From Lachnospiraceae bacterium (GTDB lineage: Bacteria > Bacillota > Clostridia > Lachnospirales > Lachnospiraceae), in assembly GCA_024697065.1 (NCBI GenBank), contig JAILGE010000033.1, positions 1 through 64,000 on the forward strand: 64,000 nucleotides of DNA, written 5' to 3'. The notes under the pieces were generated by a model. It made no database searches, was not told the origin of the DNA, and saw nothing but the letters and a program-made list of their open reading frames with translations. Positions 2,404 through 41,152 of the stretch are shown here, piece by piece. Positions within the stretch are counted from its first letter, which is position 1; every line of letters begins with the position of its first letter. The position numbers and the translations under genes were made by a program.

Positions 2404-2670
2404 GTAATGCAGAGCACTTTTAATCACATCGAAGGAATTTAGTTTTCTTCTGATGTGTATATTAAATTATAGGCTAAAAGCTTACCGATCAACAAAGAGT
2501 ATTCGGATGTGTAATATACTTATTACTCGTTGATTGGATTTGTTGAGTGGCTAAGGCGTGAATGTAGGGAGAATTCTTTGCTGCCTGACTTGACGGAAGT
2601 GTTATGGCTTGCCCAGACAAAAGGAAGATAAGAAAGAAATTCAGAAGAATTGCAGAGGATTAAAAGAATA

Positions 2671-5358
2671 ATGATACTGTTTAAGTTTATTTTCGATATT
2701 GCAGTCATGCCAATAAGGCTCTTGTTAGAGTACCTGTTTTGTTTTTTTTATAAGATTACAAATGCTGATGCGGGTTTAGCTGTTGTATTTCTTAGTCTTG
2801 CCGTTAATTGTCTTGTGTTACCGTTCTATGAATTGGCCGAAAGTGCGGAGAGAAAGAAACAATTAAAAGAAAACATAATAGATAAGTGGCGTAAGCATAT
2901 TAATTCTTCCTTTAAAGGTGATGAAAGGATAATGATTCTCTCGGCGTTATATAGAGAAAATCATTACAGAATGATCTACTCTGTTTCTGGAATGTTTTCA
3001 CTTCTTTTGGAAATACCGATTTTCATGGCGGCGTATCAATCACTCTCAGAAATACGACTGTTTAAGGGTGCCGTTTTTTTATTTATTAATGATCTTTCTA
3101 AGGCAGATGGATTGCTGGATTTAGGGAATTGTTCAATAAATATACTGCCTGTCCTTATGACTGTTTTAAATATATTATCAGGTGCGGTATATTCGAGGAA
3201 ACAGACCAAGTATGAGAAAACGAAGTTAATAGTTATTGCATTGGTTTTTTTGCTCCTTTTGTACCCGATGCCTTCGGGATTAGTGCTTTATTGGACGCTT
3301 AATAATTTATTCTCATTGTGCAAAAATCTTGTAAAACGTTTATCTGAAAATACCAATAGGATCTCAAATCTAAGAAATGAAAATAATGAACACTCATTTG
3401 TTTTTGATCAAGAGTTAGTTTATTTCCTTGTATGTGGATTTGTGGTTGCTATGTTGTTAGGATTACTTGTGCCATCGCAGGTGGTAGCATCATCACCACT
3501 TGAATTTAGTGAGCGAGTAATTATGAATAATCCGACTACTCTGATGCTTAGACCAATGGCGACAGCATTGGGGATATTTGTCTTCTGGCCAATGATCATT
3601 TATTATTTTTCAGGGAAAAAAATAAGAAAATTGTTAACCTCAATAATCTCAATAATTTGTTTTGTTTTTTTACAAGGATACATGTTTTCTGGTAACATTA
3701 GTGGCGCATTGACGGAAGACCTTGAACTAAATCGAGGAGTGAATTCGGTGATTGGTAGGAGTACTTGGAGAAATTCTGCCGTTGTAGCTCTCCTGACTGT
3801 TTTGTTTGTAATGCTTGTATTGAGACATAAAAAGATTCGCTTATTTTTTTCTGTTATTTTTTCGGGTATTACATTGGCTGCAATCAGTGTGGGAATCATA
3901 AATATGGAGAGAATCCATTCGCAGTTTACTGATTATGCAGAAATTGCAAGAGTTGATAATGAACTAACATTTTCGTTAGATAAAAAAGGAAAAAACGTGG
4001 TTATGATCATTGTAGATTCTGCAGTAGGAATGTATTTTCCTTATTTTGTCAATGAGGATGAGGATTTGTATCGCCAATATGATGGATTTACACTATATTT
4101 GAATACATTGTCAACCGGCCCGGCAACAAACTACGCAATTCCGGGAGTATATGGCGGGTATGAATATACACCTGCTGAATTGAATAAACGAGATGATGAT
4201 TTGCTAGAAGAGAAGCATAATGAAGCATTAATGGTACTTCCTGTTTTTTTTGCTGAGAATGGATATGAAACCACTGTTTTTGATCCTGCGTATGCAGGGT
4301 ACAGTTGGATTCCTGATCTTTCAATTTTTTGTGAGTATCCTGAAATAAGAACCGCAAACAGCAATGGTACTTTTAATATGAGTAAAGATCAGAGTGAACT
4401 AAGGATTGATCTTTTGGAAAGGAATCTGTTTTGTTATTCCGCCACTTCTTGTGCACCTTACGCACTCAGAACGTATATTTATCAGAATGGAAGCTACGGG
4501 GAGCCGAATATCAGATATCTGGATCATCTTATGACGCGGTATTTGCATTCTGGCATTGATATAGAGAATGACCCGTATTTTTATAGAGCACAGTTTATTT
4601 TGTCGGATAACGTTACTGTAGGAGAGCGGAAGTCATTCTTAGATAGTTATTCAGTACTTGAGAATCTTAGTAATATGACAATTGTTACGGATGAGGGAAA
4701 GAATACGTTTATGTCACTTTATAATTCTGCTGCACATGACTGTATGTTTTTGCAGGCACCAGAATACGCGCCATCAGCGTTTGTCGATAATACTGAATTC
4801 TATGATATAAATAGTGGCTTATATTCTATAGATGGTGTTAATTTGCGTTTAAATGATATGAATGGAAAAATGCATTATCAATCTACATTTGCTTCTTTAA
4901 AAGAAATAGGGAAATGGTTGGATTATCTTAGGGATAATGATTTGTATGATAATACTCGTATTGTGATCGTATCTGATCATGGTAGAAGTAATGCTAATTT
5001 TGTTGAAATGTTGTCTGATGAGGTACCTGATATTGAGACATATTCAGCGTTACTTTTATATAAAGATTTCGGATCTTCGGGATTTTCTGTTTCATACGAA
5101 CCTATGACGAATGCTGATACACCGGCACTTTTGGTTAATGGGATAGTGGATTGTCCACTTAATCCTTTTACCGGAAGGATGCTTATTGATGGTAGTTATA
5201 AAAGTAAAGGTATTGATGTTATTTATGGATATGATAATGGTATACAAGTGAATATTAATAATGGAAAAAAATTTCTGCCAACATATTGGTTTAGAGTAGA
5301 TGTTAATGGTGGTATGCTTTCTGATCCGGATAATTGGACATATGATGGAATCAGGTAG
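2671..5358 (+). CDS. YidC/Oxa1-like domain fused to a sulfatase/LtaS-like phosphotransferase domain (copy A)
   Basis: About 895 residues from ATG 2671, preceded by AGAGGA; an in-frame TTG at 2650 is less likely. Residues about 1-230 align with bacterial YidC: the segment ending VNCLVLPFY, a charged cytoplasmic loop, EIPIFMAAY, and MPSGLVLYWTLNNL. The position of the conserved groove arginine of YidC (five before the Pro) is Asn46. More membrane segments follow to about residue 415. The C-terminal half is an alkaline-phosphatase-superfamily domain: KNVVMIIVDS (Asp449, metal), PATNYAIPG (Thr486, likely nucleophile) and IVSDHG (Asp769, His770, metal), laid out as in LtaS and phosphoethanolamine transferases. 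Inference: an extracytoplasmic phospho-group transferase. A 267-base gap upstream holds no clear gene. A paralogue lies at 36127. Confidence 0.8.
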   Translation: MILFKFIFDIAVMPIRLLLEYLFCFFYKITNADAGLAVVFLSLAVNCLVLPFYELAESAERKKQLKENIIDKWRKHINSSFKGDERIMILSALYRENHYRMIYSVSGMFSLLLEIPIFMAAYQSLSEIRLFKGAVFLFINDLSKADGLLDLGNCSINILPVLMTVLNILSGAVYSRKQTKYEKTKLIVIALVFLLLLYPMPSGLVLYWTLNNLFSLCKNLVKRLSENTNRISNLRNENNEHSFVFDQELVYFLVCGFVVAMLLGLLVPSQVVASSPLEFSERVIMNNPTTLMLRPMATALGIFVFWPMIIYYFSGKKIRKLLTSIISIICFVFLQGYMFSGNISGALTEDLELNRGVNSVIGRSTWRNSAVVALLTVLFVMLVLRHKKIRLFFSVIFSGITLAAISVGIINMERIHSQFTDYAEIARVDNELTFSLDKKGKNVVMIIVDSAVGMYFPYFVNEDEDLYRQYDGFTLYLNTLSTGPATNYAIPGVYGGYEYTPAELNKRDDDLLEEKHNEALMVLPVFFAENGYETTVFDPAYAGYSWIPDLSIFCEYPEIRTANSNGTFNMSKDQSELRIDLLERNLFCYSATSCAPYALRTYIYQNGSYGEPNIRYLDHLMTRYLHSGIDIENDPYFYRAQFILSDNVTVGERKSFLDSYSVLENLSNMTIVTDEGKNTFMSLYNSAAHDCMFLQAPEYAPSAFVDNTEFYDINSGLYSIDGVNLRLNDMNGKMHYQSTFASLKEIGKWLDYLRDNDLYDNTRIVIVSDHGRSNANFVEMLSDEVPDIETYSALLLYKDFGSSGFSVSYEPMTNADTPALLVNGIVDCPLNPFTGRMLIDGSYKSKGIDVIYGYDNGIQVNINNGKKFLPTYWFRVDVNGGMLSDPDNWTYDGIR

Positions 5359-7527: not shown

Positions 7528-7666
7528 AAGTCTCAGTGAAATTATACTTTCTGTCAATATTGCTTTCAAGGGATTAAGGATAAAAAAGAGATTATTAGAA
7601 AATGAAATCATTGGAATGAATACGAAGTTGGATGGTTTATTATACTTATTAGAGGTGATCGCAGGG

Positions 7667-10422: not shown

Positions 10423-10878
10423 ATGAGAAAGAACAAAGGTTTTTCACTCGTAGAGCTGATCATCGTTATCGCAATTATGGCTATTCTTGTAGGCGTACTT
10501 GCTCCTCAGCTTATCAAGTACATCGAGAAGTCAAAGGTTGCAGCTGATACTCAGGTAGTAGATTCAGTTCACACAGCTATGCTTACAGCTATGATGGATC
10601 CTGAAGTTGCAAATGCTACTTCTGGCTCGAATGCATTCTCTGGAGCTGGTCAGGTTACTGGTATTGTTTCAACTTCACCCGTAGGATCTGCATTTTGGGA
10701 AGTAATGGGTGGCGATCAGGGAGCAAAAGTATCTCTCAAGGTTAAGTCCTATGGTGCTGCTGATACAAAGATTTCTTACAGCGTTATTGGTAACAACAAG
10801 ATTTCTGTTTGGATCGATGGTACAGATAACAGAGGTTCTAAGACTCCTAACGCTTCTTACTATATCAGAGTTGAGTAA
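10423..10878 (+). CDS. type IV pilin, probable major pilin (orphan)
   Basis: A 151-residue prepilin with the short basic leader MRKNKG, cleaved before Phe: FSLVELIIVIAIMAILVGVL. The +5 Glu of mature class IVa pilins is present. A helix with IKYIEKSKVAADTQ and a small Ser/Gly-rich globular domain without cysteines follow. The start has AAAAGGAGAAA upstream. The gene has its own promoter and a strong terminator and uses preferred codons more than its neighbours, fitting high expression; hence the major pilin call, which is inference. It is about 9 kb from the assembly genes and flanked by YfhO-type genes. The prepilin at 32662 is a close paralogue (shared KYIEKS segment). Confidence 0.85.
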   Translation: MRKNKGFSLVELIIVIAIMAILVGVLAPQLIKYIEKSKVAADTQVVDSVHTAMLTAMMDPEVANATSGSNAFSGAGQVTGIVSTSPVGSAFWEVMGGDQGAKVSLKVKSYGAADTKISYSVIGNNKISVWIDGTDNRGSKTPNASYYIRVE

Positions 10879-27943: not shown

Positions 27944-27988
27944 GTCACTAATTGAAAGTGTAGATTTATGCAATTTGAGGAGGAACGT

Positions 27989-28726
27989 ATGAAAAGGGAC
28001 AACAAGGGCTTTTCATTAATGGAAATAGTGGTAGCGGTGGCACTGTTTGCCATTATAGTTGTGCCCGTTATGGCTTCTATTGTTTCTTCAATAAGGCTTA
28101 ATCAGAGATCCAGAAAACTGATGATAGCTAATGATACCTGTCAGACGGTGATGGAAGGTTTTGCAGGTATGACTTTTGACCAGGTGGCAAAGACTGTTGC
28201 AACTCATTATGGTACTGATGATGTTGTAAGCGGAGCTAATGCTCTTTCCACGATAAGTGCAAATGCTTACAATACCAAGGTTAATATTGATAAAGCCACA
28301 TCATGGCCTATTACTAAGATTCCTGAGTCGGGAATCAAACCTAATCAGATTACCGTGACCGGTGTTGGAACTATATCCAGCAATGATCTTATTTCGGGAA
28401 ATAATGCAAGAATGGTTAATGGATTTTTCGCGGATTATGCAAGAACCAAGATAACAGCAGGTGATTATACACCGAAGCTTGTGATCTGCATGGACAGCCA
28501 CAAGTCTTTATTGTTCCTTGGATATCTTAATGTCAGATCGGAAGGCTATTATCAGGATATTCTTGTACAGTTTATACCTATGGCACCTAAGGAGGACAGC
28601 AAGTATTACTCGTACGAAGCTATGGCATATGTCTATGAGTTTGATCAAAATACTGCATTATCGGATCGCATGACAGGATCCCCGCAGATCACCATGACTA
28701 CGGGTATAAAAAACAGGAATAATTAA
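27989..28726 (+). CDS. prepilin-like minor pilin (PilV-type)
   Basis: About 245 residues from ATG 27989, which has GAGGAGG directly upstream; an earlier in-frame ATG at 27968 has none. The leader MKRDNKG is followed by FSLMEIVVAVALFAIIVVPV, a type III signal with Glu at +5. The remaining 200 residues form an extracytoplasmic domain with few cysteines and no recognisable ligand motif. The position as first of a set with a GspK-like member suggests the pseudopilus-like tip complex that primes pilus assembly; this is inference from the PilV/GspI analogy. Confidence 0.8.
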   Translation: MKRDNKGFSLMEIVVAVALFAIIVVPVMASIVSSIRLNQRSRKLMIANDTCQTVMEGFAGMTFDQVAKTVATHYGTDDVVSGANALSTISANAYNTKVNIDKATSWPITKIPESGIKPNQITVTGVGTISSNDLISGNNARMVNGFFADYARTKITAGDYTPKLVICMDSHKSLLFLGYLNVRSEGYYQDILVQFIPMAPKEDSKYYSYEAMAYVYEFDQNTALSDRMTGSPQITMTTGIKNRNN

Positions 28727-28776
28727 TTTCTTTAAGTGGAGACAGAACATCTGTTGAGCAGGAGAAAGGAAAAACA

Positions 28777-30471
28777 ATGAGTAGGGAAAGAATCAGAAAG
28801 AAAATTCAGAGACTGTTTGGAGAAGGAAATAATAATCGCGGCGCAGCAATGGTATCTGTATTGATAGCCGTTGCTTTCATTGCTGTTCTTGCCACTTCTC
28901 TGCTGTATCTTTCATATATGAATTATCTTACAAAGGTAATGAGATATGGCTCTACCGATGATTTCTATACATCAGAATATGCTGTGGATGAATTATCATC
29001 TACATTACAGCAGGTAGCTGTTGACAAGGGTATTGCCGGAGGTAATATCTCGGATGCAATTTCTACTATAACTGCCAAAGTTGGTGGCGGAGATGGTACA
29101 TATGATAATGATAAGGTGGAAGCACTTCTCAGAGCTGCAACACATGATGCATCCATTTCCGTAAATTCTGCGGTTACCAGTGCGGATAACTATACTACCA
29201 CATCCAATAGCGTAACTCTTAAGGGAGTACAGGTTACATCAACTACGCCGGAGGGATACGTAAGTACAATCAGAACTGATATTATCATTAACTTCAGACC
29301 GCAGGGCGAAGGATCGTTGGATATAAATGATTTCAGTGTTATTTCTGATTCACCCGTCAGATGTGGAGGTCAGGCCGGTGATCTTATCCTTTCCGGATGC
29401 ATATATGCCCAGAAGAATTCAGCGGCAGCAAGTAGTTTGGGAGTGGCTTCCGGTACAGCTTTTCAGCTTGATGACGGCGCTGTTGTTTCCATGATAGGTG
29501 ACAAAGCGGTTATTAATGGTGACCTTGTTATCGGTAAAGGCTGTACACTTGTTATTTCTACAGATACTGTTGTTTACGGTGATGTTAAGATAGGTCAGAA
29601 TTCCACTGTTATCATGCTTGATAAATTTAAGGTAACAGGAAGCATTTCAGGATCCGGAAAGTATAAGACTCAGGATGCCAGCAAGCTGAAGATCGGATAT
29701 GTGTATGACGGTGACGAGATACCGGGATACGGTGCTTCACCAAAGTATTCAGGACTTGTAAACAGATTGTTCTGCTCTGAGGTATATTTTTACGATAAGT
29801 CAGTAAACAACTGGAAAGCATTTGATTTTGAATCATACTGTCAGGATGGAACACAGAAAGATTCCAATTGTTATGATGTATCCAACGGCTCAAGTACTGG
29901 GGATGGAAGTTTGACCGGAGGCCCCTATGTACAGATAAATCTTCCTGATTCGGCACACAATTTTAACAATACGCTGGTTCTTGGCACTAACAGAGTAACA
30001 AAGACTCATTATGGTGCTAAGGTTAATACCACATTTACCAGCACTAAAGGTGTGTATTTCAATTCTGAAAGCGGATCCGGAGATGCTTCTGTTATGCAGA
30101 GAATGAAAGATGAAGATTATCAGAAGGTTCTTGATTCCTGTTTTGCCATGCCTTTCGGTAATTCTGTGCCTTGTACCACTGAGGATGGCTCTTATGATTA
30201 TAATTCGCATAATGCCCAGGCGGATTTTGCATGGGCGACTGATTCCAAATTCCGTGATATCAGAGACAGTGATTCTTATGAGTCCGCAAGAAAGATAAAA
30301 GAGGTTGGAGACAGAAAGTATGTATACTGGAATGGAAATAATTATCTTCCTGTAAGATATCTTCTTGACGACAATACAAGACAGATGATAGATAATATAT
30401 TCAGTGCCAGCAGTGATACCTCAGATCCTACTACATCTTTTGTTGAATATGAGAATTGGGTGAAGAACTGA
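28777..30471 (+). CDS. large PilX/GspK-like minor pilin with a repetitive beta-domain
   Basis: A 564-residue protein. After a basic N-terminus comes RG then AAMVSVLIAVAFIAVLATSL, a prepilin-like cleavage site and hydrophobic helix lacking the +5 Glu, as in GspK/PilX proteins placed at the pilus tip. The central part (about residues 190-300) has short repeats of polar strands such as DLILSGCIYAQ, AVINGDLVIGKGCTL and VVYGDVKIGQNSTVI, resembling the right-handed beta-helix of polymer-forming (bactofilin-like) domains. Only two or so cysteines occur. The start has AGGAGAAAGG upstream. The repeat domain is unusual for a minor pilin; its role as a tip adhesin is a guess. Confidence 0.65.
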   Translation: MSRERIRKKIQRLFGEGNNNRGAAMVSVLIAVAFIAVLATSLLYLSYMNYLTKVMRYGSTDDFYTSEYAVDELSSTLQQVAVDKGIAGGNISDAISTITAKVGGGDGTYDNDKVEALLRAATHDASISVNSAVTSADNYTTTSNSVTLKGVQVTSTTPEGYVSTIRTDIIINFRPQGEGSLDINDFSVISDSPVRCGGQAGDLILSGCIYAQKNSAAASSLGVASGTAFQLDDGAVVSMIGDKAVINGDLVIGKGCTLVISTDTVVYGDVKIGQNSTVIMLDKFKVTGSISGSGKYKTQDASKLKIGYVYDGDEIPGYGASPKYSGLVNRLFCSEVYFYDKSVNNWKAFDFESYCQDGTQKDSNCYDVSNGSSTGDGSLTGGPYVQINLPDSAHNFNNTLVLGTNRVTKTHYGAKVNTTFTSTKGVYFNSESGSGDASVMQRMKDEDYQKVLDSCFAMPFGNSVPCTTEDGSYDYNSHNAQADFAWATDSKFRDIRDSDSYESARKIKEVGDRKYVYWNGNNYLPVRYLLDDNTRQMIDNIFSASSDTSDPTTSFVEYENWVKN

Positions 30472-30488
30472 TGAGAGGAGCTAATCGC

Positions 30489-31091
30489 ATGAAAAAGATC
30501 TTCAAAAGCAATAAGGGTTTTTCCTTGCTGGAGCTCTTGATAGTCATCACAGTATCTATGATACTTGTTGGTGGTGCGGCATTAGGTATTAGTCTTCTGC
30601 ATAATGCTAATGTTAATGCTGCAGCAGCTAGATTGGAGACTGCATTTAATTCCGCCAGGAGCATTTCTATGGCAAAGGGACAGAATGCCGGAGCGCTTAC
30701 TTTAAGAAGAGTAGGTGATAGTATTTATGCTTACATAGGTGATCCGGTATACGGAAGAGGGGATACTGTTACAACGTCAGAAATGGAGTTGATTTGTACA
30801 GGTGCTCTAACTGCACATTGTAAGCTCGACACGGGGGACGGAAGTGACGAACCAGACCTTACAAGTTTTGATTTGGATGCAGCAACAGATATTTCAGATA
30901 AGTATACTTTATGCTTTAATTCTGCGGGACAGATGCTTCTTTATCATGAGGATGGTACTACTGTTGAATATAATGATTTTTCTGCATTAAAGTTTTCTTT
31001 CCGTAAAGGAGTGTCCGGAAAACGTGTTTCTGTGATGTATATCAGACCAAATACCGGATACACAGGCGTCGTTGCTTATGCTCTGCCGTAA
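30489..31091 (+). CDS. prepilin-like minor pilin (GspH/FimT-type)
   Basis: About 200 residues from ATG 30489, preceded by AGAGGAGC; earlier in-frame starts at 30456 and 30471 would lengthen the leader beyond the usual size. The leader MKKIFKSNKG is followed by FSLLELLIVITVSMILVGGA with Glu at +5. The helix continues through NAAAARLETAFNSARSISMA, and the globular domain ends in a beta-strand-rich stretch, typical of GspH/FimT minor pilins. It overlaps the preceding gene's end region closely, indicating co-translation. Confidence 0.8.
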   Translation: MKKIFKSNKGFSLLELLIVITVSMILVGGAALGISLLHNANVNAAAARLETAFNSARSISMAKGQNAGALTLRRVGDSIYAYIGDPVYGRGDTVTTSEMELICTGALTAHCKLDTGDGSDEPDLTSFDLDAATDISDKYTLCFNSAGQMLLYHEDGTTVEYNDFSALKFSFRKGVSGKRVSVMYIRPNTGYTGVVAYALP

Positions 31092-31103
31092 TTGGAGGTT
31101 ATT

Positions 31104-32624
31104 ATGAAGATTAAACACAGCAATAAAGGATTTACATTAGTTGAACTTCTAGTAGCGGTTGCAGTACTTGTGATCGTTATGATGGAATTGTATGCAGTTA
31201 TCAACAATACTTCAAAGGTATATCAGATGGGAGATTATGAGGTTTCTCTTCAGATGGAGGCACAGCAATCTTTCCAGCTTCTTGAAGAATTGATGATAGA
31301 TGCTAATTCCAAGATTGAATATGATCCGTCTACAGAAACGCTCACTATAAGCGGAAATAAGATTAAAGCAGACGGCACCAAGGGCGATGCATATGAATAT
31401 GTTGTAAAGTATTATGCAGCAGGTGCGACAGACCCGGAGACATCTGAGACACTTGTTTACGGTCGCATTAAACTTAGCGTCAAGGGTATGGTTGCCTCTT
31501 TAGATCACTGGGAGACGTTGGCAGATTATGTTGATTCTTTTGATGTTGATATGTCGCAGTATACAACATCGGATAAAGTTACTCTTAATATGACTCTTCA
31601 TAATGAGAGATATTCTTATCAGGCATCAAAAGACATTTATCTCAGAAATGGAATCGGTGTAAGTGATGATCATGCTCTTGCAGATTCAACCGATGCTCAG
31701 TATTTTGTTGATTGCATGAGATTTGGAACTTATGATCTCAAAGCGGTTACCAAAGAAATAGATAATGGAAAGACTACGACTTATTCGGAGTTCTATTTCC
31801 AGGAGAAGGCGGGAGCAACAGGTGACGCCAGAAGAGTAACTACAGATTATAAGATTGATTCCAGTGGAAAGATAAAATGTACTGATACTCTTAATAGTTC
31901 TAAGAGTGCTTCCCGAGGACCTGTTATAGTTATTGCAACCGGTGGAAAAACTGTAACAGCAGGTGTTCCCGGATATGAAGAAGCACCTGATGCAAAGATC
32001 AGTGTGTCTACAGATCCGGTAGGAATAGGAGCGAATGATTACGGTGTTATATTAGTCAGATGTGCAACATCATCGGTTTATGGTTGCTCGCTTTCACAGG
32101 TTAGAGGAATCAGCCTCAGTGATGCAGAAAATGTTACTTATAAGATTTCCTGTAAATGGAACAGTGGAATTACCGGTACGGATTCTTTCTCATCAGGACA
32201 TAGCAGCGGTGAAAAGAAGAAAACCAATACTGTCGAGGCTGTAGGTTCAAACGGAAAGACAAATCAGCCGTACGGATGGGCAACCGGAGATAATTGGGAC
32301 AGTAATCTTAAGAAGGGATCAAAGAAATACGAGACGTATGGTGGCTCTATAGGTATATTTGATACAGAAACCAGATTCTTCTTTGATCTTCCTTCAAATT
32401 CAATAGGGGCTTCAAGTTATGGATGGTTGCAGTCGAATGCTTATAAAAATTTCCTGGATTTTACTAACGATCACAACAGACTTGTTGTGACGGCTCATGT
32501 TACATGGTCAGGTGGTGTTTCTGAAGATTTTCCTATGGTATTTTTCCCTGACAAACAGGATGGCTCCGGTTACCAGTATATTTCAGATAGTCAGCGAGAT
32601 TTCCTTCTTCCGGATACACTGTAA
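31104..32624 (+). CDS. large prepilin-like minor pilin (PilW/GspJ-type)
   Basis: About 506 residues from ATG 31104 with TTGGAGG upstream. Leader MKIKHSNKG, then FTLVELLVAVAVLVIVMMEL with Glu at +5. The first 200 residues resemble PilW/GspJ (QQSFQLLEELMIDA, then TLTISGNK). The remaining 300 residues are an added polar domain rich in Ser, Gly, Thr and Asp with aromatic spots (PYGWATGDNW), much longer than ordinary minor pilins. This could be a tip-exposed domain. Twelve bases separate its start from the previous stop. Confidence 0.75.
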   Translation: MKIKHSNKGFTLVELLVAVAVLVIVMMELYAVINNTSKVYQMGDYEVSLQMEAQQSFQLLEELMIDANSKIEYDPSTETLTISGNKIKADGTKGDAYEYVVKYYAAGATDPETSETLVYGRIKLSVKGMVASLDHWETLADYVDSFDVDMSQYTTSDKVTLNMTLHNERYSYQASKDIYLRNGIGVSDDHALADSTDAQYFVDCMRFGTYDLKAVTKEIDNGKTTTYSEFYFQEKAGATGDARRVTTDYKIDSSGKIKCTDTLNSSKSASRGPVIVIATGGKTVTAGVPGYEEAPDAKISVSTDPVGIGANDYGVILVRCATSSVYGCSLSQVRGISLSDAENVTYKISCKWNSGITGTDSFSSGHSSGEKKKTNTVEAVGSNGKTNQPYGWATGDNWDSNLKKGSKKYETYGGSIGIFDTETRFFFDLPSNSIGASSYGWLQSNAYKNFLDFTNDHNRLVVTAHVTWSGGVSEDFPMVFFPDKQDGSGYQYISDSQRDFLLPDTL

Positions 32625-32661
32625 TTTAAGATAGCTTATATAAGATAGAAAGGGTATTAAT

Positions 32662-33204
32662 ATGCGTAAGCTTAAAAACAAGGGATTTACTCTTGCTGAG
32701 TTACTGATCATAGTTGCGGTTATCGCCATACTTGTTTCAGTAATAGCAGCGAACTTATTTAAGTATATCGAGAAGTCTCAGGCAACGGATGATATTGCTT
32801 CTGCAGAGGTCATCAGAACGGCCGTGCAGTCTGCTTTCAACGATTCTGAAGTCAATAAGGTAGTTCTGAGGGGATCGATTGCCGGAGTAGGAGATACGGA
32901 TGCTTTTTGGGGTACTCCCGGAGTAGAGTTCCAGGCAACTCCCGCACTTGCTACATTGGACGCGACCGCTGCTCCGCTGGTTGCTTCTACGGTAAATGAA
33001 TATCTTGGAACACTTCCCGAATTTAAATTAAAGAAACCCATGGGGACAGGGTATGGTGCGCCTGCTCAATGGTGGGTGAAGATTAATTATGCGGACAAAA
33101 AAAATGTCCAGGTTGCAATCTATATCAGAGATTCTTCGGGAAATGAGGTGCAGGTAGTTCCTGAAGCGGATACTGCTTCATTATATTCAAAGTATGCAAA
33201 GTAA
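32662..33204 (+). CDS. type IV pilin, paralogue of the orphan pilin
   Basis: A 180-residue pilin with leader MRKLKNKG and FTLAELLIIVAVIAILVSVI, Glu at +5, then FKYIEKSQATDDIASAEVIR. The KYIEKS helix and the short globular domain match the orphan pilin at 10423. AAAGGG precedes the start. It is last in the prepilin operon and is followed by a strong terminator. It could be a second major-type pilin or an assembly variant. Confidence 0.82.
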   Translation: MRKLKNKGFTLAELLIIVAVIAILVSVIAANLFKYIEKSQATDDIASAEVIRTAVQSAFNDSEVNKVVLRGSIAGVGDTDAFWGTPGVEFQATPALATLDATAAPLVASTVNEYLGTLPEFKLKKPMGTGYGAPAQWWVKINYADKKNVQVAIYIRDSSGNEVQVVPEADTASLYSKYAK

Positions 33205-33236
33205 ATAAGTTAAATCGTTTAATGTGATCTGACTTG

Positions 33237-33268
33237 AAAAGACATACCGCTTGCGGTATGTCTTTTTT
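33237..33268 (+). terminator. strong terminator ending the pilus cluster
   Basis: AAAAGACATACCGC and GCGGTATGTCTTTT form a perfect stem with a two-base loop followed by a T-run. It may work in both directions. Confidence 0.93.
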
Positions 33269-33377
33269 ACAAATTTTATTATGTATGGTAATATATCCTC
33301 CGTTGTGCATGATCAAATTTTTTGTTTGGTTAGCTTCGTTGACGGTTAATAACTTTGAAACCGGGAGTATACAATCC

Positions 33378-34637
33378 ATGAACATAACCATCGTAGGCGG
33401 AGGTAATATCGGAACGCAGTTTGCTGTACATTGCGCCGAGAAGGGACACTCCGTTACAGTATTTACATCGAATCCTGATAGATTTCGTAATGAACTTGAG
33501 ATTCATGCTTCAGATGGAAGTGTGATCCATAAGGGGACAATCAAAGCCGCAGTAAATGATCCTGAGATCGCTTTTTCCGATGCGGATCTTATTTTTGTGA
33601 CTATGCCTGCTTTTTGTATGCAGGATAATGCGGCGCGTATTTATCCCTATGTTCGCAGGGGGACTATCATATGTCTGACGCCCGGCAGCGGAGGAGGAGA
33701 ATTTTTCTTCAAGCCCTGTGTAGATAAGGGCTGTATCCTCATGGGCTTGCAAAGAGTCCCTTCCGTATCCAGGATAGTGGAATATGGTCATATCGTATGC
33801 TCAGAGGGCTACAGAGATACTTTATACATAAGTAGTATTGTCTCAGGTAATAATGATTACTGCCGGAGCTCCATGCCTAATTTATCAAATGCCGGAGTTA
33901 ACGCTGTGACTGTAGACGAAGATAACATGTCTTATACAGACACTGGCAGGAATGCAATTACGAATGAGCGTGAAATAAATGATAGTGAGGCAGTAAGAAG
34001 ATCTGTTACAGATAATCACTGTGCAGCCATCATAGAAAGCATCTTCGACATCACCTGCAAGACTCTGCCTGTCTACCTTAATATCACCCTTACACCGTCA
34101 AATCAGATATTGCATACTGCAAGGCTCAGATCCATGCTGTCAGACTATAATGAGGGCAGGGTATATGATAAACTCCCTTTATTCTACGGTGACTGGGATG
34201 AGGCTTCTTCAGATCTCTTGCTTAAGTGTGACGGGGAAGTGCAGCTAATCTGCAGACGCATTACCGAATTTGACCTTACAGGCGTCAGATCCTTAAAGGA
34301 CCATTATGAAGCCGCAGATGTCATAAGCTTAACCGATAAGCTGAAAAGCATTAAGAGTCTGAAAAATCTGGAAACTCCCGTTAAACAGGTGGAGGGGGGC
34401 GTCATCCCGGATTTCTCATCCAGATATTTTGAAGCGGATTTCCCCTACGGCCTGGCTGTTGTCAATGAGATCGCGGATCTCGCAGGGGCAGAGGTGCCGA
34501 ATATAAAAGCGACTCTTGAATGGTATGAGGATCTGACCCATAGAGTTAAGGATGTGAAAATGACCTCCTACCATGAATTCAGTCTCGCAAAATGCGGGAT
34601 CCGGTCATATAAAGATCTGATAGATTTTTACAGATAG
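33378..34637 (+). CDS. NAD/NADP octopine/nopaline dehydrogenase-family protein
   Basis: About 419 residues from ATG 33378. An in-frame upstream extension exists but would begin inside the terminator. The N-terminal Rossmann fold has NITIVGGGNIGTQFAVHCAE (GGGNIG at about 7-12), as in opine dehydrogenases and ketopantoate reductases. The C-terminal helical domain has NITLTPSNQILHTARLRSML with the His-Thr-Ala-Arg cluster and VYDKLPLFYGDWDE, characteristic of the octopine_DH domain. Opine dehydrogenases reduce the imine between an amino acid and a keto acid. It is adjacent to a CDP-glycerol transferase-like gene with no clear terminator between; what it makes here is unknown. Confidence 0.75.
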   Translation: MNITIVGGGNIGTQFAVHCAEKGHSVTVFTSNPDRFRNELEIHASDGSVIHKGTIKAAVNDPEIAFSDADLIFVTMPAFCMQDNAARIYPYVRRGTIICLTPGSGGGEFFFKPCVDKGCILMGLQRVPSVSRIVEYGHIVCSEGYRDTLYISSIVSGNNDYCRSSMPNLSNAGVNAVTVDEDNMSYTDTGRNAITNEREINDSEAVRRSVTDNHCAAIIESIFDITCKTLPVYLNITLTPSNQILHTARLRSMLSDYNEGRVYDKLPLFYGDWDEASSDLLLKCDGEVQLICRRITEFDLTGVRSLKDHYEAADVISLTDKLKSIKSLKNLETPVKQVEGGVIPDFSSRYFEADFPYGLAVVNEIADLAGAEVPNIKATLEWYEDLTHRVKDVKMTSYHEFSLAKCGIRSYKDLIDFYR

Positions 34638-34706
34638 ATTTTTTTGTGGTAATATAGCAGGCGTTGCGTAAAATTTGGATCAATTAAACGAAAAGAAGAA
34701 AACGAA

Positions 34707-36038
34707 ATGCTGCTGTATATCGATCCCGGAACCGGGAGTATGTTATTTACCATATTGTTAGGAGTACTGAGCGCCGGAGTGTACTTTATCCGCGGTCTGG
34801 TGCTTAAGATCAAATATTCCATAGGAAGCGGAAAGCGGACAAAGGATGATGATGAAAACATTCCCGAGTTCGTGATCTTTTCCGATCATAAAAGATACTG
34901 GAATATCTTCGAACCCATCTGCAGGGAAATGGAGAAGCGTGGAAAAGAGATAGTATATCTTACTGCGTCATCCGATGATCCCGCTCTTAAATGTGATCTC
35001 AAAAATGTAAAAGCAAGATTCTTAGGTGAGGGCAACAAGACATATGCTGCTCTGAATTTCTTAAAGGCAAAGATTGTTCTCTCGACCACGCCTTCTCTTG
35101 ATGTATTCCAATGGAAGCGCTCCAGAGATGTGAGATACTATGTTCACATTCCTCATTCGGCGGGAAATTTAAGCCTCTACAGGATGTACGGTCTGGACTA
35201 CTATGATGCCGTTCTCACCAACGGTGCCTACCAGGAGGAACAGGTCCGCGGACTTGAAAAGGCCCGCAGGATGCCGGCAAAAGAATTGGTAAGGATCGGC
35301 GTCCCTTATCTCGATGAGATGCTAAAAAGACTGGAAGCTTCATCTGAGCGTGAAGTTAAAGGGACAACAGACAGGTCAACTACCATGGCAACAGAGGGAG
35401 CAACCGGTACCGGGAAAAAATATACCATCCTCCTTGCACCCTCCTGGGGAAAGAGCGGCATGCTCTCACGTTTCGGCTCAGACATATTAAAAGCTCTGAA
35501 AGACACGGGCTATCATATAATCGTCCGTCCGCACCCACAGTCATTTACGGCAGAGAAGAAGATGCTTGATGACCTTATGGCAGAGTTGCCGGACAGTGAA
35601 GATTTTGAATGGAACAGAGACAATGATAATTTCGAAGTATTGAAAAAAAGCGATCTCATGATCTCCGATTTCTCCGGTGTTATATTTGATTTCGCACTTG
35701 TATTCGGAAAGCCCGTAATGTGTACCAAAACTGATTTCGACCTGAATCCATATGATGCTTCATGGCTTGATGAAGAGCCATGGACCTTCGGTGCTTTTCC
35801 GAAGCTGGGTCATATCCTTACGGAAGAAGGTATCCCTGACATAAAGCACCTTATCAATGAGTCTATCGAAAGCGATGCGTATAAGAAGAGCAGGGAAGAA
35901 GTAAGAGATGCAATGTGGCAGCACAGAGGCCGTGGCGCAGCAGATGTAGCGGATTATCTGATCAACAAATCTGCGGAACTTGATCGTGGAGACGTTACTG
36001 ATACCGTAGACAGCTCTGACGCTGCAACTGCTAGCTGA
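34707..36038 (+). CDS. CDP-glycerol glycerophosphotransferase-like protein
   Basis: A 443-residue protein with an N-terminal membrane anchor (LLYIDPGTGSMLFTILLGV) and a GT-B-like teichoic-acid polymerase domain of the TagB/TagF family. Its motifs are ILLAPSWGKSG, IIVRPHPQSF (RPHP at about 274-277) and DLMISDFSGVIFDFALVFGK, the last being the donor-binding signature of CDP-glycerol transferases. The predicted reaction adds glycerol-phosphate (or another CDP-polyol phosphate) to a lipid-linked sugar acceptor in the cytoplasm. It precedes the YidC-like/sulfatase-like fusion by 89 bases in the same direction, which suggests a joint role in a phospho-polymer. The N-terminal half has SLDVFQWKRSRDVRYYVHIP, an atypical region. 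Confidence 0.85.
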   Translation: MLLYIDPGTGSMLFTILLGVLSAGVYFIRGLVLKIKYSIGSGKRTKDDDENIPEFVIFSDHKRYWNIFEPICREMEKRGKEIVYLTASSDDPALKCDLKNVKARFLGEGNKTYAALNFLKAKIVLSTTPSLDVFQWKRSRDVRYYVHIPHSAGNLSLYRMYGLDYYDAVLTNGAYQEEQVRGLEKARRMPAKELVRIGVPYLDEMLKRLEASSEREVKGTTDRSTTMATEGATGTGKKYTILLAPSWGKSGMLSRFGSDILKALKDTGYHIIVRPHPQSFTAEKKMLDDLMAELPDSEDFEWNRDNDNFEVLKKSDLMISDFSGVIFDFALVFGKPVMCTKTDFDLNPYDASWLDEEPWTFGAFPKLGHILTEEGIPDIKHLINESIESDAYKKSREEVRDAMWQHRGRGAADVADYLINKSAELDRGDVTDTVDSSDAATAS

Positions 36039-36126
36039 CAGCGTTAAGCTCAATAATTATATGATATCAAAATAGAAACAAAAAAATTAAAAAGAAATCC
36101 AACAAATTAAAGAAGAGATAATAACA

Positions 36127-38901
36127 GTGAGTATCGGATCATTTTTTTACACATTGATAGTTCGCCCTTTGGGTCTTTTATTTGAAGCAATACTTGTGGC
36201 AGGTCTGCAGATAACGGGTAAGCCCTGGCAGGCCATTATTTTCCTGAGCCTGATGGTCAATATCCTGGCGCTTCCGCTTTACCGCCGTGCGGACCGCATG
36301 CAGCAAAAGGAGAGGGATGCGGCCAATGAGATAAAGGACAGAAAGCAGCAGATAGAGAAGACCTTCAAAGGCGATGAGCGTTATATGATCTTAAGGACGC
36401 TTTACCGTCAGAATGATTATAAGCCTGTATATGTCTTACGCGGTTCACTTCCGCTTCTTATCCAGGTGCCCATCTTCATGGCAGCATACAGACTGCTCTC
36501 GAACCTTGCGCTCCTTGACGGCGCAGCTCTGGGACCTATAGCAGATATGGGACAGCCTGACGGGCTCATTAAGATAGGTGCATTGTCGATCAATTTCCTT
36601 CCCATATTGATGACGCTTATCAATTTCATATCTTCTGCTATATATACAAAGGGGTATGACCTCAAACAAAAGCTCCAGCTCTACGGTATCGCCCTGATCT
36701 TCCTTTTACTGCTTTACAGATCTCCGGCGGGACTTGTATTTTACTGGACTTTGAATAACCTGTTCTCTCTTTGCAAGAATATTGTTATGTACGGGATCAT
36801 GGGGAAACATGGAGCTAAGAAAAGTGCAGCAGCTAACGATAATGCAGAGCCTGCTTCAAAACATATAATAATAAATGAAAAGTCAAGGCTTGCCGCAAAA
36901 GAAACCGAGCGCAGGGGAGCAATACTTTTCCTTGGTGAAGCTGCGCTTCTGACTGTCCTTATCGGTCTTTTCATCCCATCCGGAGTACTTACGGCATCAC
37001 CTCTTGAATTCGTGGATCTTGCAAATACACTAAGTCCCAATCACTATCTGATCCCCGCCGTTGTACTGGCTGCGGGAAGCTTCTTATTCTGGCTGCAGGT
37101 ATTCTATCTCCTTGCTCCTTCAAAGGAGAGGAGAATATGGGAATTCATTTCTCTCGTTCTCATCGTTATCTTCATGATCAATTTCATGAAGTTCGGAACA
37201 GGCAAGGGAACACTTTCATCCATGCTTGATTTTGATGACGGACTGGTGATCAAGAAGGCGAGCATCAGAGAAAACCGGATATGGATCGCAGCATGTGCCT
37301 GCGGCATGCCCCTGGGCTTGTTACTTATCAAAATGACTGAGCATTTTATTAGAAACGCCCACCGCCTTAACCTTACCGCCATCGCAACCTACCTTGTATG
37401 GATTGCATCAGCAGCTCTTCTTATCATGACAGTAAAGAATATAAGAAGCGTTTCCGCAGAGTATGATTCCTTCTTAAATACTGTGGCAGGTGAGAACGGT
37501 GATTCCGAAAGCGATAACGGTGCACAGGCATATAATTTTATACAGTTATCGGAAAACGGTAAGAATGTCATCGTCCTTATGATGGACCGTGCCATCAACG
37601 GATATATCCCTTACATCATGGATGAGAAGCCTGAGCTTGTAGCACAGTTTGACGGCTTTACTTATTATCCCAATACCATTTCCTTCGGCGGACATACCAA
37701 CTTCGGCGCCCCCGCACTTTTCGGAGGATATGATTATACGGTTGAAGCCATGAATGAGCGCGACGACATGAAGCTTGTAGATAAGCATAATGAAGCTCTT
37801 CGCGTGATGCCGGAGATCTTCGGAGATAATGATTATGAAGTAACGGTCATTGATCCTCCCTATACCAACTACAGCTGGATGACGGATTTTTCCATCTATT
37901 CCGACCATCCGGAATACAGGCTTTTCTCCGCATCGGGTAGATTCAACTCCGATCCTGAGCTTTTTAAAGAGACTGAGACCATAAGGAACAGGAACTTTTT
38001 CTGTTACAGCATCATGAAGTGTATGCCTTTGAACTGGCAGAACTGGTTTTATTCCGATGCGGCTTATCTTGAAGCGAATGTGGTATTTCCTTCGGACAAC
38101 GGGGAAGAGGTCTCCCATATCAATCAGACCATTACGGATGCCCATACAGCCCACGGCTTCTCCCGAAAGTTCATGGATGAATATACGACTCTTCAGAACC
38201 TTGGCAGGATGACATCCGTGACAGACGATGTGGAATATACATTTACGATGATGGACAATAATACTACCCATGAAGTGGCAGTGCTTAAGGAGCCGGAGTA
38301 TGTTCCCGCGGAATTCGTGGACAACACGGAGTATGATGCGGCTCATATGGACCGCTTCGTATTAAACGGAAGGCGCATGGGAATGTGGGACAAATATCAG
38401 TTCCTTCATTATGAGATAAATGTTGCTTCCATGATAGAGCTTGGCAAATGGTTCGATGAATTAAGAGCAAGAGGAGTATGGGACAATACCAGGATAATAA
38501 TCGTTGCGGATCATGCCCATCCTCTGGCGCACTTTGAAGATATGTATTTCGAGGATCCTAATGATGAGGATACAAGTACTGATCTGGACTGCATGTTTGT
38601 CAATCCTCTCCTTATGGTCAAGGACTTTGGGGCGACGGGCTTTAAGACGGACGATACCTTCATGACCAATGCGGATGTTCCGGCGCTTGCTACCGCAGAT
38701 CTTATCGATGATCCGGTAAATCCCTTTACGGGCAATCCCATCGATATGACTCCGAAGACCCTGGGACCGCAGAAGATAATGCTTTCCAATGACTGGAGCG
38801 TAAATGTCAATAACGGCAACCGCTTCCTGCCGGGCAAATGGTTTTCGGTCCATGATGATATCTTTGATATGGACAACTGGGAATATCTCGGATATTACTG
38901 A
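36127..38901 (+). CDS. YidC/Oxa1-like domain fused to a sulfatase/LtaS-like phosphotransferase domain (copy B)
   Basis: A 924-residue fusion starting at GTG 36127. Residues about 1-225 follow the YidC plan: IIFLSLMVNILALPLY, a charged loop, PLLIQVPIFMAAY, ILMTLINFISS and SPAGLVFYWTLNNLFSLCKN. The YidC groove arginine position is Asn45 (five before Pro50). Four or more further membrane helices reach about residue 440. The C-terminal domain is of the alkaline phosphatase/sulfatase superfamily: VIVLMMDRAI (Asp487), GGHTNFGAPA (Thr524, likely nucleophile), IIIVADHAHP (Asp795, His796). It ends in NGNRFLPGKWFSV. Next to the CDP-glycerol transferase-like gene, it may act extracytoplasmically on glycerol-phosphate or phosphoethanolamine lipids; the substrate is not shown by the sequence. 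Confidence 0.82.
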   Translation: MSIGSFFYTLIVRPLGLLFEAILVAGLQITGKPWQAIIFLSLMVNILALPLYRRADRMQQKERDAANEIKDRKQQIEKTFKGDERYMILRTLYRQNDYKPVYVLRGSLPLLIQVPIFMAAYRLLSNLALLDGAALGPIADMGQPDGLIKIGALSINFLPILMTLINFISSAIYTKGYDLKQKLQLYGIALIFLLLLYRSPAGLVFYWTLNNLFSLCKNIVMYGIMGKHGAKKSAAANDNAEPASKHIIINEKSRLAAKETERRGAILFLGEAALLTVLIGLFIPSGVLTASPLEFVDLANTLSPNHYLIPAVVLAAGSFLFWLQVFYLLAPSKERRIWEFISLVLIVIFMINFMKFGTGKGTLSSMLDFDDGLVIKKASIRENRIWIAACACGMPLGLLLIKMTEHFIRNAHRLNLTAIATYLVWIASAALLIMTVKNIRSVSAEYDSFLNTVAGENGDSESDNGAQAYNFIQLSENGKNVIVLMMDRAINGYIPYIMDEKPELVAQFDGFTYYPNTISFGGHTNFGAPALFGGYDYTVEAMNERDDMKLVDKHNEALRVMPEIFGDNDYEVTVIDPPYTNYSWMTDFSIYSDHPEYRLFSASGRFNSDPELFKETETIRNRNFFCYSIMKCMPLNWQNWFYSDAAYLEANVVFPSDNGEEVSHINQTITDAHTAHGFSRKFMDEYTTLQNLGRMTSVTDDVEYTFTMMDNNTTHEVAVLKEPEYVPAEFVDNTEYDAAHMDRFVLNGRRMGMWDKYQFLHYEINVASMIELGKWFDELRARGVWDNTRIIIVADHAHPLAHFEDMYFEDPNDEDTSTDLDCMFVNPLLMVKDFGATGFKTDDTFMTNADVPALATADLIDDPVNPFTGNPIDMTPKTLGPQKIMLSNDWSVNVNNGNRFLPGKWFSVHDDIFDMDNWEYLGYY

Positions 38902-38929
38902 GAATTGTAAAAGCTCTTTTATAAAAAGT

Positions 38930-38958
38930 TTGACAATTTTAAAAATAATATGTATAGT
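38930..38958 (+). promoter_or_regulatory. sigma-A promoter of topA-codY
   Basis: Consensus TTGACA, 17 bases, TATAGT, about 70 bases before the topA start. It is one of the best sigma-A matches in the window. Confidence 0.75.
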
Positions 38959-39028
38959 GTTTTGCGTTGCTGTTATTTGGTACGTAAAACGGCAAACATC
39001 TTAAATTAAATGGGGTACGGGAAAATCA

Positions 39029-41152
39029 ATGGCTAAAAATCTTGTGATAGTTGAGTCACCGGCTAAGGTGAAGACCATAAAGAAGTTCCTCGGCACAAAC
39101 TATGAAGTGGTTGCCAGTCAGGGACATGTTCGTGATCTGCCCAAGTCATCACTGGGAATAGATATCGAGAACAATTACGAACCTAAATATATAACCATCA
39201 GAGGCAAGGGCGAGATCCTTGCAAAGCTTCGTAAGGAAGTGAAGAAGGCTGATAAGATCTATCTCGCAACCGACCCGGACCGCGAGGGAGAAGCCATCAG
39301 CTGGCATTTATATGAAGCGCTGAAGCTTTCGGAGAAGAAAGTGGCCCGCATATCTTTTAACGAGATCACTAAGAATGCGGTCAAGGAATCAATCAAGAAT
39401 GCCCGCGAGATCGATATGAATCTCGTGGATGCACAGCAGGCAAGACGTATCTTAGACAGAATGGTGGGTTATCGTATATCACCCCTTTTATGGTCCAAGA
39501 TAAAGAGAGGTCTTTCCGCAGGACGTGTTCAGAGTGTTGCTCTCAGAATGATCTGTGACAGAGAGGCGGAGATCAGTGCATTTATTCCCAAGGAATACTG
39601 GACTATGGATGCCAACCTTCTCCCCGCAGGAACGAAGAAGCCCTTCACGGCACACTTCTATGCGGATGAGAATGGCAAGAAGACCATAGATAATGCAAAA
39701 GAAGCCGACAGGATAGAGAAGATCCTTAAAGGTGCAAATTTTGAAGTGAAAGAGAGCAGGAGAGGTGAGCGTACCAGAAAGGCGCCCCTTCCTTTTACAA
39801 CATCCACTCTGCAGCAGGAGGCCAGCAAGGCGCTCAACTTCTCCACAAAGAAGACCATGCAGATCGCCCAGCAGCTTTATGAAGGTGTGACTATCAAGGG
39901 ACAGGGTACAACAGCCCTTATCTCTTACCTGCGTACCGATTCCACCCGTGTATCGGATTTTGCAAAAGAAATGGCGAAGGATTATATCCTCTCGAACTAC
40001 GGTGAGGAATTCCTTTCCGCGGACTACAGGTCGGATGCTGCGAAGAAAGCGGCAGCAGGCGGCTCGGAGCATAAGATCCAGGATGCTCACGAAGCCATCC
40101 GTCCCACAGATATAAACAATACCCCCGATAAGGTAAAGGGAGATCTCTCCAGAGATCAGTACAGACTCTACAACCTTATCTGGAAGCGTTTTGCTGCAAG
40201 CCGTATGAGTGCTGCTACATTTGAGACACTTTCTGTAAAGCTTGATGCGAGGAAGATCATATTTACAGCATCGGCAAGCGCAGTAAAATTCGAAGGCTTC
40301 ATGAAAGTCTATGCTGATGAGGACCGTGACAATGATAACGGCAAGGCAGAGAATGCATTCCTTCTTAAGGAGATGAATGAGAAGAGCACCATCACTTTCG
40401 AATCTCTTGAAAAGAAGAAACATTTTACACAGCCGCCCGCACACTTCACGGAAGCAAGCCTTGTGCGTGCGCTGGAGGAACAGGGGATAGGAAGACCGTC
40501 AACATACGCGCCCACTATCTCAACCATCCTTGCCAGAAGATATATACTTAAAGAAAACAAGAACCTCTTTGTTTCCGAGCTTGGAGAGATAGTAAACAAG
40601 GTCATGAAGGACGAGTTCCCTGCCATTGTCGATCCCAAGTTCACTGCCAATATGGAAAGCATGTTGGACAGCGTCGGAGAGGGAAATATAAAGTGGAAGA
40701 CCATCATCGAGAATTTCTATCCCGATCTTGATGCAGCAGTGCTTAAGGCCGAAGAGGAAATGGCACAAATCGAGATCAAGGATGAAGAGAGTGATGTTGA
40801 ATGCGAGAAATGCGGCAGGAAGATGGTCATCAAGTACGGACCTCACGGAAGGTTCCTGGCATGTCCCGGATTCCCTGAGTGTCAGAATACAAAGCCTTAC
40901 TTCGAGAAGATCGGAGTAAAGTGCCCCAAGTGCGATGGCGAGATCGTGATCCGCATGACCAAAAAGGGCAGAAGATATTTTGGCTGCGAGAACATACCCA
41001 CCTGTGACTTCATGAGCTGGAACAGACCCGTAAACGAGAAGTGCCCCAGATGCGGCGGACTCCTTGTGGAAAAGGGCAACAGACTCTGCTGCATGGATGA
41101 ACAGTGCGGATTTGTTAAAGACAAGCCTGAAAAAAATAACGCTGAGGAGTAA
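39029..41152 (+). CDS. topA: DNA topoisomerase I
   Basis: A 707-residue type IA topoisomerase that relaxes negative supercoils. The TOPRIM domain is at the N-terminus (VIVESPAKVKTIKKFLG, then ATDPDREGEAISWHL with the metal-binding acidic residues). The catalytic tyrosine is Tyr300 in ALISYLRTDSTR. LSAGRVQSVALR is the next signature. The C-terminus has three zinc ribbons, CEKCGRKM, CPKCDGE and CPRCGGL, each with a second cysteine pair. Full length, intact. The codY gene follows by 10 bases; this topA-codY-flgB order resembles the region preceding the fla/che operon of Bacillus. Confidence 0.97.
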   Translation: MAKNLVIVESPAKVKTIKKFLGTNYEVVASQGHVRDLPKSSLGIDIENNYEPKYITIRGKGEILAKLRKEVKKADKIYLATDPDREGEAISWHLYEALKLSEKKVARISFNEITKNAVKESIKNAREIDMNLVDAQQARRILDRMVGYRISPLLWSKIKRGLSAGRVQSVALRMICDREAEISAFIPKEYWTMDANLLPAGTKKPFTAHFYADENGKKTIDNAKEADRIEKILKGANFEVKESRRGERTRKAPLPFTTSTLQQEASKALNFSTKKTMQIAQQLYEGVTIKGQGTTALISYLRTDSTRVSDFAKEMAKDYILSNYGEEFLSADYRSDAAKKAAAGGSEHKIQDAHEAIRPTDINNTPDKVKGDLSRDQYRLYNLIWKRFAASRMSAATFETLSVKLDARKIIFTASASAVKFEGFMKVYADEDRDNDNGKAENAFLLKEMNEKSTITFESLEKKKHFTQPPAHFTEASLVRALEEQGIGRPSTYAPTISTILARRYILKENKNLFVSELGEIVNKVMKDEFPAIVDPKFTANMESMLDSVGEGNIKWKTIIENFYPDLDAAVLKAEEEMAQIEIKDEESDVECEKCGRKMVIKYGPHGRFLACPGFPECQNTKPYFEKIGVKCPKCDGEIVIRMTKKGRRYFGCENIPTCDFMSWNRPVNEKCPRCGGLLVEKGNRLCCMDEQCGFVKDKPEKNNAEE

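Follow-up and report, generated by a model that had tools for sequence, protein, structure and literature searches.

How could a membrane domain of the YidC/Oxa1 type come to serve a phosphotransferase that works outside the cell? This question is raised by the gene at positions 36127..38901 of a 64,000-nucleotide stretch of DNA (the window; contig JAILGE010000033.1 of assembly GCA_024697065.1, positions 1 to 64,000) from a Lachnospiraceae bacterium of the gut. Its single open reading frame (ORF) encodes a YidC/Oxa1 domain, additional membrane helices and a sulfatase-fold domain, and a TagF-like gene lies directly before it. Comparison with related loci makes it probable (about 0.6) that the fusion protein works, facing outward, as the transferase of a pathway that tailors the surface with small charged head groups.

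Architecture and active site of the fusion protein

The fusion matched PF02096 with 89 bits (cut-off 35) and TIGR03592 with 88.6 bits (cut-off 84.3), which places it in the YidC/Oxa1 superfamily. Because it passes NCBI's YidC domain model, automatic annotation may well label it a plain insertase. Pfam Sulfatase (PF00884) scored 19 bits, below the gathering cut-off of 25; in a paralogue on contig C41 of the same genome the same model reached 26.6 bits. The alkaline phosphatase/sulfatase superfamily fold was confirmed for the outer domain. The top three Foldseek rows by E-value were membrane PbgA/YejM and MCR-1, and both phosphonate monoester hydrolases and choline sulfatases are found among the VIA-align rows, which span only residues 477-924. 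No LtaS model of NCBIfam was among the 18 families listed for the protein at E 0.001 or better. Loop charges and predicted topology fit a location of the sulfatase-fold domain outside the cell.

The sequence-only reading had described a YidC-type domain joined to a phosphotransferase domain of the LtaS/EptA type, and domain, fold and residue evidence bear this out. Asp487, Thr524, Asp795 and His796, which it had named, are present and, like His715 and Lys832, identical in all 27 aligned fusions. The six residues are also kept in the diverged fusions L059 and L068 and are the same in 9/9 aligned unfused partner enzymes (two copies from L157 lay outside the alignment). The residue pattern of EptA, PptA and LtaS (Thr, Asp and Asp-His) thereby occurs in 27/27 fusions. 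By comparison with LtaS and EptA, we take Thr524 to be the nucleophile and the other conserved residues to be metal or phosphate ligands. Many invariant columns were also found in the YidC part of the aligned fusions. Coordinates are collected in Table 1.

Table 1. Positions of the fusion protein, its domains and associated genes (window coordinates unless a locus is named)
Feature	Position	Strand	Remarks
YidC-sulfatase-fold fusion protein	36127..38901	+	924 aa; main finding in the Lachnospiraceae bacterium window
YidC/Oxa1-type domain, residues 36-221	36232..36789	+	five membrane helices predicted; Asn45 in the groove
Second set of five predicted membrane helices, residues about 265-440	36919..37446	+	loop charges put the following domain outside
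Alkaline-phosphatase/sulfatase-fold domain, residues 477-924	37555..38898	+	Asp487, Thr524, His715, Asp795, His796, Lys832
TagF-like (Glyphos_transf, PF04464) partner	34707..36038	+	443 aa; YIDPGTGS motif; one N-terminal hydrophobic helix (low-confidence model)
Octopine/nopaline-dehydrogenase-like gene	33234..34637	+	PF02317 84.6 bits; true start may be near 33378; adjoins the TagF-like gene upstream
Second YidC-sulfatase-fold fusion	2650..5358	+	902 aa; beside an Acyl_transf_3 gene (1312-2403)
YidC-free cassette	L157:4693-13723		aminoethylphosphonate gene set, TagF-like gene, two sulfatase-fold genes; YidC domain absent

Distribution of the fusion family

An artefact of assembly, which the sequence-only reading had considered, is ruled out because the protein belongs to a family of 29 fusions, four of them in this genome and two in the window. 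The 29 fusions examined lie in 26 stretches and represent 27 loci; 27 proteins were aligned, and L059 and L068 were added later. Both halves stand in the same order in all 29 (local profile). With the part after the YidC domain as query, the family was detected in 15/299 sampled Lachnospiraceae genomes, and four named Lachnospiraceae records additionally carry a fusion. The fusion of Lachnospiraceae bacterium XPB1003 shares 88% identity with the one described here. Across the phylum, four of 398 genomes gave a profile match (G000, G261, G257 and G613); the match in G257 is a diverged unfused enzyme, and G613, from outside the Lachnospiraceae, encodes a full-length fusion.

Five PF02096 proteins were found in the genome of the window, namely a canonical YidC of 449 residues and the four long fusions. 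No TagF-like gene was found within 10 kb of the second fusion in the window. The copy on contig C41 is flanked by a GT2 gene and a GtrII-type gene inside a deoxysugar cluster. At L006:3540-12758 a fusion stands between GT2 and GtrII-type genes, with hexose 2,3-dehydratase and FdtA genes present; no GtrA-like flippase ORF was seen there by eye, no dedicated search being made, and the fusion might replace GtrA.

The TagF-like partner

The partner gene product scored 48.1 bits against PF04464 (cut-off 22.1). Its structural model (pLDDT 80.3) matched best to TagF with CDP-glycerol (3l7k, E 3.7e-12), and its profile also matched the TagF-like Cps3D and TarL. A search of the 299 genomes retrieved a close form (at least 46% identity) in 15 genomes and 18 distant matches (24-32%). 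The pairing pointed out in the sequence-only reading holds across the family: the fusion and the close TagF-like form each occur in 15 genomes and together in 14, and the two genes lie within 6 kb of each other at 21 of the 27 fusion loci. G052, which showed only the close TagF-like form in the first search, has a diverged 787-residue fusion nearby with a TagD-like gene between; in G215, which showed only the fusion, this gene lies at a contig end with the neighbouring side unseen. PF04464 matched only twice in the genome of the window, at 34707..36038 and on contig C40, each time beside a fusion.

The YidC domain on either partner

In other Lachnospiraceae, those with the distant TagF-like forms, a YidC domain is fused to the TagF-like enzyme itself. 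It was detected with a local profile in all 15 that were fetched of the 18 distant matches, and PF02096 and PF04464 both scored above cut-off in the five chains scanned (L067, L070, L071, L074 and L077). Two further distant matches, on contig C21 of G283, show PF02096 in the same long frame; the match in G216, at a contig end, was outside this test. An unfused sulfatase-fold gene is located near 8/15 of these YidC-TagF loci. The YidC module is therefore found on either partner of one pathway: among the loci with both enzymes it is on the sulfatase side in 21, on the TagF side in eight and on neither in one (L157).

A tree of YidC domains was calculated from 48 rows, of which 42 were used after removal of one gappy row and five duplicates. 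The TagF fusions (support 100) and the sulfatase fusions (support 76) fell apart in this tree, and a single clade of fusion YidC domains was not rejected by the approximately unbiased (AU) test (p 0.42). The tree is compatible both with two separate attachments of the module and with one shared origin.

Head-group activation genes at related loci

Exactly one route for activation of a head group with CDP or CMP was encoded at 15/27 fusion loci, and never two types; the routes were of choline-kinase type (seven loci), CobD-like (three), phosphoenolpyruvate (PEP) mutase or PepM type (four) and TagD-like (one, the cytidylyltransferase at L059). Of 20 hand-picked control stretches from the same genomes, one contained such a route, a choline-kinase/LicC pair, and this stretch begins about 5 kb past a fusion; single decarboxylase-like, aminotransferase-like and sulfatase-like matches also occurred among the controls. 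These counts come from local profiles built from genes of the same loci (the TagD profile from L059 alone), so that detection is partly circular. Pfam and NCBIfam models were applied to representatives only, neighbour counts use all ORFs, overlapping ones included, and L137 is not an independent locus.

Six of the seven choline-kinase-type loci also hold a LicC-like nucleotidyltransferase. PF01633 was above cut-off in the four choline-kinase-type genes scanned, together with APH matches, and at L042 the choline-kinase-type and LicC-type genes adjoin an EamA transporter. In one chain at L043:2925-4706, winged-helix, nucleotidyltransferase and choline-kinase-type domains were found joined.

At three fusion loci, a nucleotidyltransferase and a CobD-like domain (169 bits, cut-off 290) are joined in one chain. 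Counting both kinds of fusion there are six CobD-like loci, four of them in genomes searched for PEP mutase (G049, G086, G196 and G213). Because no PEP mutase was found in these four genomes, phosphoethanolamine or aminopropanol phosphate is our guess for the head group at CobD-like loci.

PEP mutase occurs together with phosphonopyruvate decarboxylase at four fusion loci, and at three of these a 2-aminoethylphosphonate (AEP) aminotransferase is encoded as well; representatives of all three enzymes scored above the NCBI cut-offs. Among the 15 YidC-TagF loci, PEP mutase occurs at seven and the CobD-like fusion at three. PEP mutase, decarboxylase, aminotransferase and NTP-transferase stand together at 3/4 PepM fusion loci and 5/7 PepM YidC-TagF loci. 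L049:3485-6681 encodes a PEP mutase joined to an NTP-transferase domain, and the next gene is that of an iron alcohol dehydrogenase with a sub-threshold match to PsrA; this is a hint of hydroxyethylphosphonate rather than AEP.

Supply for the 36127 locus may come from elsewhere in its genome. Contig C40 carries a full AEP cassette with its own TagF-like gene and fusion, the PEP mutase, phosphonopyruvate decarboxylase and AEP aminotransferase all being above NCBI cut-offs. AEP is thus the likely, though not certain, head group of the locus, and the four fusions of the genome might share one donor and serve different acceptors. The view that AEP is the only supply route of the genome was dropped when a choline-kinase-type gene was found beside two nucleotidyltransferase-like genes on contig C39 (L158:6245-8930); these genes are unlinked to the fusions, and no TagF-like gene or fusion was present in the 11.7 kb seen.

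Relation to LicD

PEP-mutase loci above cut-off numbered 32, in 31 of the 299 genomes; at 11 of them the fetched stretch also held a TagF-like gene or a YidC fusion. LicD was detected at one of these 11 loci versus nine of the 21 without either gene, and none of those 21 had a sulfatase-fold gene. At fusion loci LicD was found in only two of 27 cases (local profile), and not at the 36127..38901 locus. Five of the 16 fusion genomes gave no LicD match (G036, G049, G169, G211 and G298); among these, G169 has choline-type genes, and G036 has PEP mutase at its fusion locus. It is suggested that the system of YidC fusion and TagF-like enzyme stands in for LicD.

Proposed pathway

TagF enzymes draw a phospho-alcohol from CDP at the cytoplasmic face of the membrane, and enzymes of the EptA, PptA and LtaS type draw a head group from a phospholipid at the outer face. 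In the proposed pathway, choline-phosphate, ethanolamine-phosphate, 2-aminoethylphosphonate or perhaps glycerol-phosphate would first be converted in the cytoplasm into an activated form, CDP-X or CMP-X. At the inner face, the TagF-like partner (a GT-B enzyme, CDP-glycerol type) would load X-phosphate onto an acceptor in the membrane that is probably a lipid; for a lipid intermediate the chances appear about even. With a TagF-like step inside and unloading by the sulfatase fold outside, the lipid would therefore have to change leaflet, and the YidC-like domain may ease this crossing. Such a role fits since lipid scrambling in vitro is described for E. coli YidC and further members of the Oxa1 family in an excerpt of PMC10491306; the assignment of the crossing to the YidC domain is nevertheless tentative, with the balance somewhat against it. 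The earlier suggestion of a lipid presented by the YidC part is retained on this footing. By a covalent Thr524 intermediate and a bound metal, the outer domain would then pass the head group to a surface glycan or polymer, the presumed final acceptor, in a transfer modelled on the use of phospholipid head groups by EptA, PptA and LtaS. Taken as a whole, a third route of surface decoration, in which a dedicated YidC-type flippase carries lipid-linked choline, ethanolamine or aminoethylphosphonate from a TagF-like CDP/CMP-X:lipid transferase to an EptA-like transferase, can be put forward only as a speculative model that may well fail.

Several observations weigh against this pathway. No activation gene is located near 36127..38901, and 12/27 fusion loci show none (some of the stretches are short); the names choline-kinase-type and CobD-like are family-level, as no NCBI equivalog cut-off was reached in those scanned. 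A TagF-like gene is missing at 6/27 fusion loci, namely L048 (contig end) and five in the genome of the window and in that of its genus mate G004; each of these two genomes encodes one elsewhere. A same-genus phosphonate cassette (L057) has a TagF-like gene and no fusion. At 7/15 YidC-TagF loci no sulfatase-fold gene was found in the fetched stretch, and 21/32 PEP-mutase loci have neither a TagF-like gene nor a YidC fusion in theirs. LicD was matched in 11/16 fusion genomes; in L068 it lies 31 bases from the fusion and in L051 7 kb away, and it could perform the transfer there. The cassette L157 (G670, from outside the family) combines phosphonate genes, a TagF-like gene and two sulfatase-fold genes; because it is complete without a YidC domain, this domain is not always required, and either the need is met otherwise or its inferred role is wrong.

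Alternative explanations

The YidC-like domain could be a mere membrane anchor or folding aid for the fused enzyme, with no role in chemistry or transport. The existence of L157 and the TagF-like genes of L057 and L058 without a neighbouring fusion are in line with this, and so is the groove. A functional YidC insertase is expected to have a positively charged residue in its hydrophilic groove; at this position all 19 sulfatase-fused YidC domains compared have Asn or Gln, and the TagF-fused rows compared have Lys (19 rows including duplicates, 14 distinct in the tree). Absence of the positive residue from the sulfatase-fused domains is a weak test, as ten canonical YidC rows vary too (Y 4, K 2, N 2, R 1, gap 1). 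Loss of the groove Arg was rejected as a hallmark of the fusion because the canonical YidC of this genome (L008:5751-7100) has Tyr at the usual groove position. Points against a mere anchor are the five predicted membrane helices that the sulfatase part already owns, the invariant columns of the YidC part, and the 29 of 30 two-enzyme loci that keep YidC on one side only, the side varying. An anchor role is judged less likely than not, although it deserves serious attention.

In the sequence-only reading, TagF-like enzyme and fusion were thought to build or attach a teichoic-acid-like polymer, that is, a chain resembling poly(glycerol-phosphate). Membership of the partner in the TagF family, the LtaS-like fold with Thr at the nucleophile position and the TagD-like cytidylyltransferase at L059 agree with such a product. 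However, 14/15 loci with an activation route are of the choline-kinase, CobD-like or PEP-mutase type, no LtaS family was among those listed in the domain scan of the fusion, and the only two PF04464 matches of the genome both adjoin fusions. Because related loci encode choline-kinase/LicC, AEP and CobD-like genes and the PF04464 matches stand beside fusions, decoration with a single charged group fits better; the polymer has become less likely and is considered improbable.

A dedicated insertase or chaperone for modified proteins or partner enzymes would agree with the clear YidC/Oxa1 membership of the domain. As the sequence-only reading had proposed, the genomes were surveyed for a coexisting canonical YidC, and a separate copy was found in 10 of 11 searched genomes that carry a YidC fusion of one kind or the other (in two pieces in G135). 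It was not found by the same search in G052 (84% complete); this search can miss copies, as the fusion-free genome G009 gave no YidC at all. The YidC domain of the fusion moreover continues into other domains without a free tail, and the recurring genes of the loci are head-group activation genes, so that an insertase role has little in its favour.

Least probable is a hydrolytic role of the outer domain in the removal or recycling of head groups, for although the phosphonate monoester hydrolases and choline sulfatases among the VIA-align rows have substrates resembling the presumed groups, sulfatases use Cys or Ser as nucleophile where all 27 fusions have Thr, the leading Foldseek rows are PbgA/YejM and MCR-1, and five own membrane helices are typical of EptA/LtaS-type transferases.

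Comparison with known systems

The proposed transfer of a small charged group by the fusion resembles that by the EptA/PptA phosphoethanolamine and phosphocholine transferases, in which five helices precede an outer sulfatase-fold domain that uses a Thr nucleophile and passes a phospho-amine group to a surface molecule. The fusion differs in the YidC domain in front, and its loci supply CDP-X or CMP-X and a TagF-like enzyme, with choline-kinase/LicC-type genes adjoining a transferase of the superfamily. Donor supply for PptA-type phosphocholine transferases is called unidentified in an excerpt of PMC10434233. The choline-kinase-type and LicC-type genes and the EamA transporter of L042 recall the Lic-1 pathway (LicA, LicB, LicC, LicD); LicD, however, is scarce at fusion loci, and its part seems to be played by the TagF-like enzyme together with the fusion. 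Phosphonyl tailoring (Ppm, Ppd, AEP aminotransferase and PntC; excerpt of PMC6697681) shares its gene set with the PepM loci. The steps after CMP-phosphonate activation are called enigmatic there, with mention of LicD-like enzymes, and in contrast to the loci described here the main text contains neither "YidC" nor "sulfatase".

With LtaS/LtaP the fusion shares the fold and the residues at the Thr and metal positions, whereas none of the families listed for it at E 0.001 or better is an LtaS model and its context is mostly not one of glycerol. The partner has the fold and Pfam family of TagF/TarL but differs by its small size (443 aa) and anchor helix or, in the sister arrangement, by fusion to a YidC domain. 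The YidC domain has the family and five-helix layout of the YidC/Oxa1 insertases and differs by its fusion to surface-pathway enzymes and by its groove residue, which is Asn/Gln in sulfatase fusions and Lys in TagF fusions.

The individual domains are already known. In literature titles and abstract openings, no account was found of a YidC-sulfatase or YidC-TagF fusion, of their combination of domains, of a YidC module that occurs with both enzymes or of a connection to CDP/CMP head groups; this coverage is partial, with most subscription journals outside it, and is no proof of absence. The loci join two known logics, nucleotide activation and lipid-borne transfer, and offer candidate enzymes for the post-CMP steps of phosphonate pathways and for donor supply of the PptA type. 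A dedicated role of the YidC-like module in moving lipids is a real possibility; if so, the lipid scrambling of YidC in vitro would have a natural role.

Other features of the window

Among the loci compared, a relative of the octopine/nopaline-dehydrogenase-like gene was found only in L010. A scan of 33100-39100 gave 12 promoter-like sites (12.6 expected) and six terminator-like sites (4.7 expected); because these counts are near expectation, no operon is claimed. A row of pilin-like genes (27968-33204) lies directly upstream of the dehydrogenase, the TagF-like gene and the fusion, in the same order as in L010; the prepilin motif was scanned in one of them (32662-33204), and the others were called by eye. 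Pilin was not adopted as acceptor; pilin-like genes were noticed at fusion loci only here and in L010, no dedicated search being made. Near the second fusion, 7616-10300 encodes a YfhO protein (PF09586) and 11563-14265 a second long membrane protein that resembles it by eye, and a pilin-like gene (10423-10878) is located between the two.

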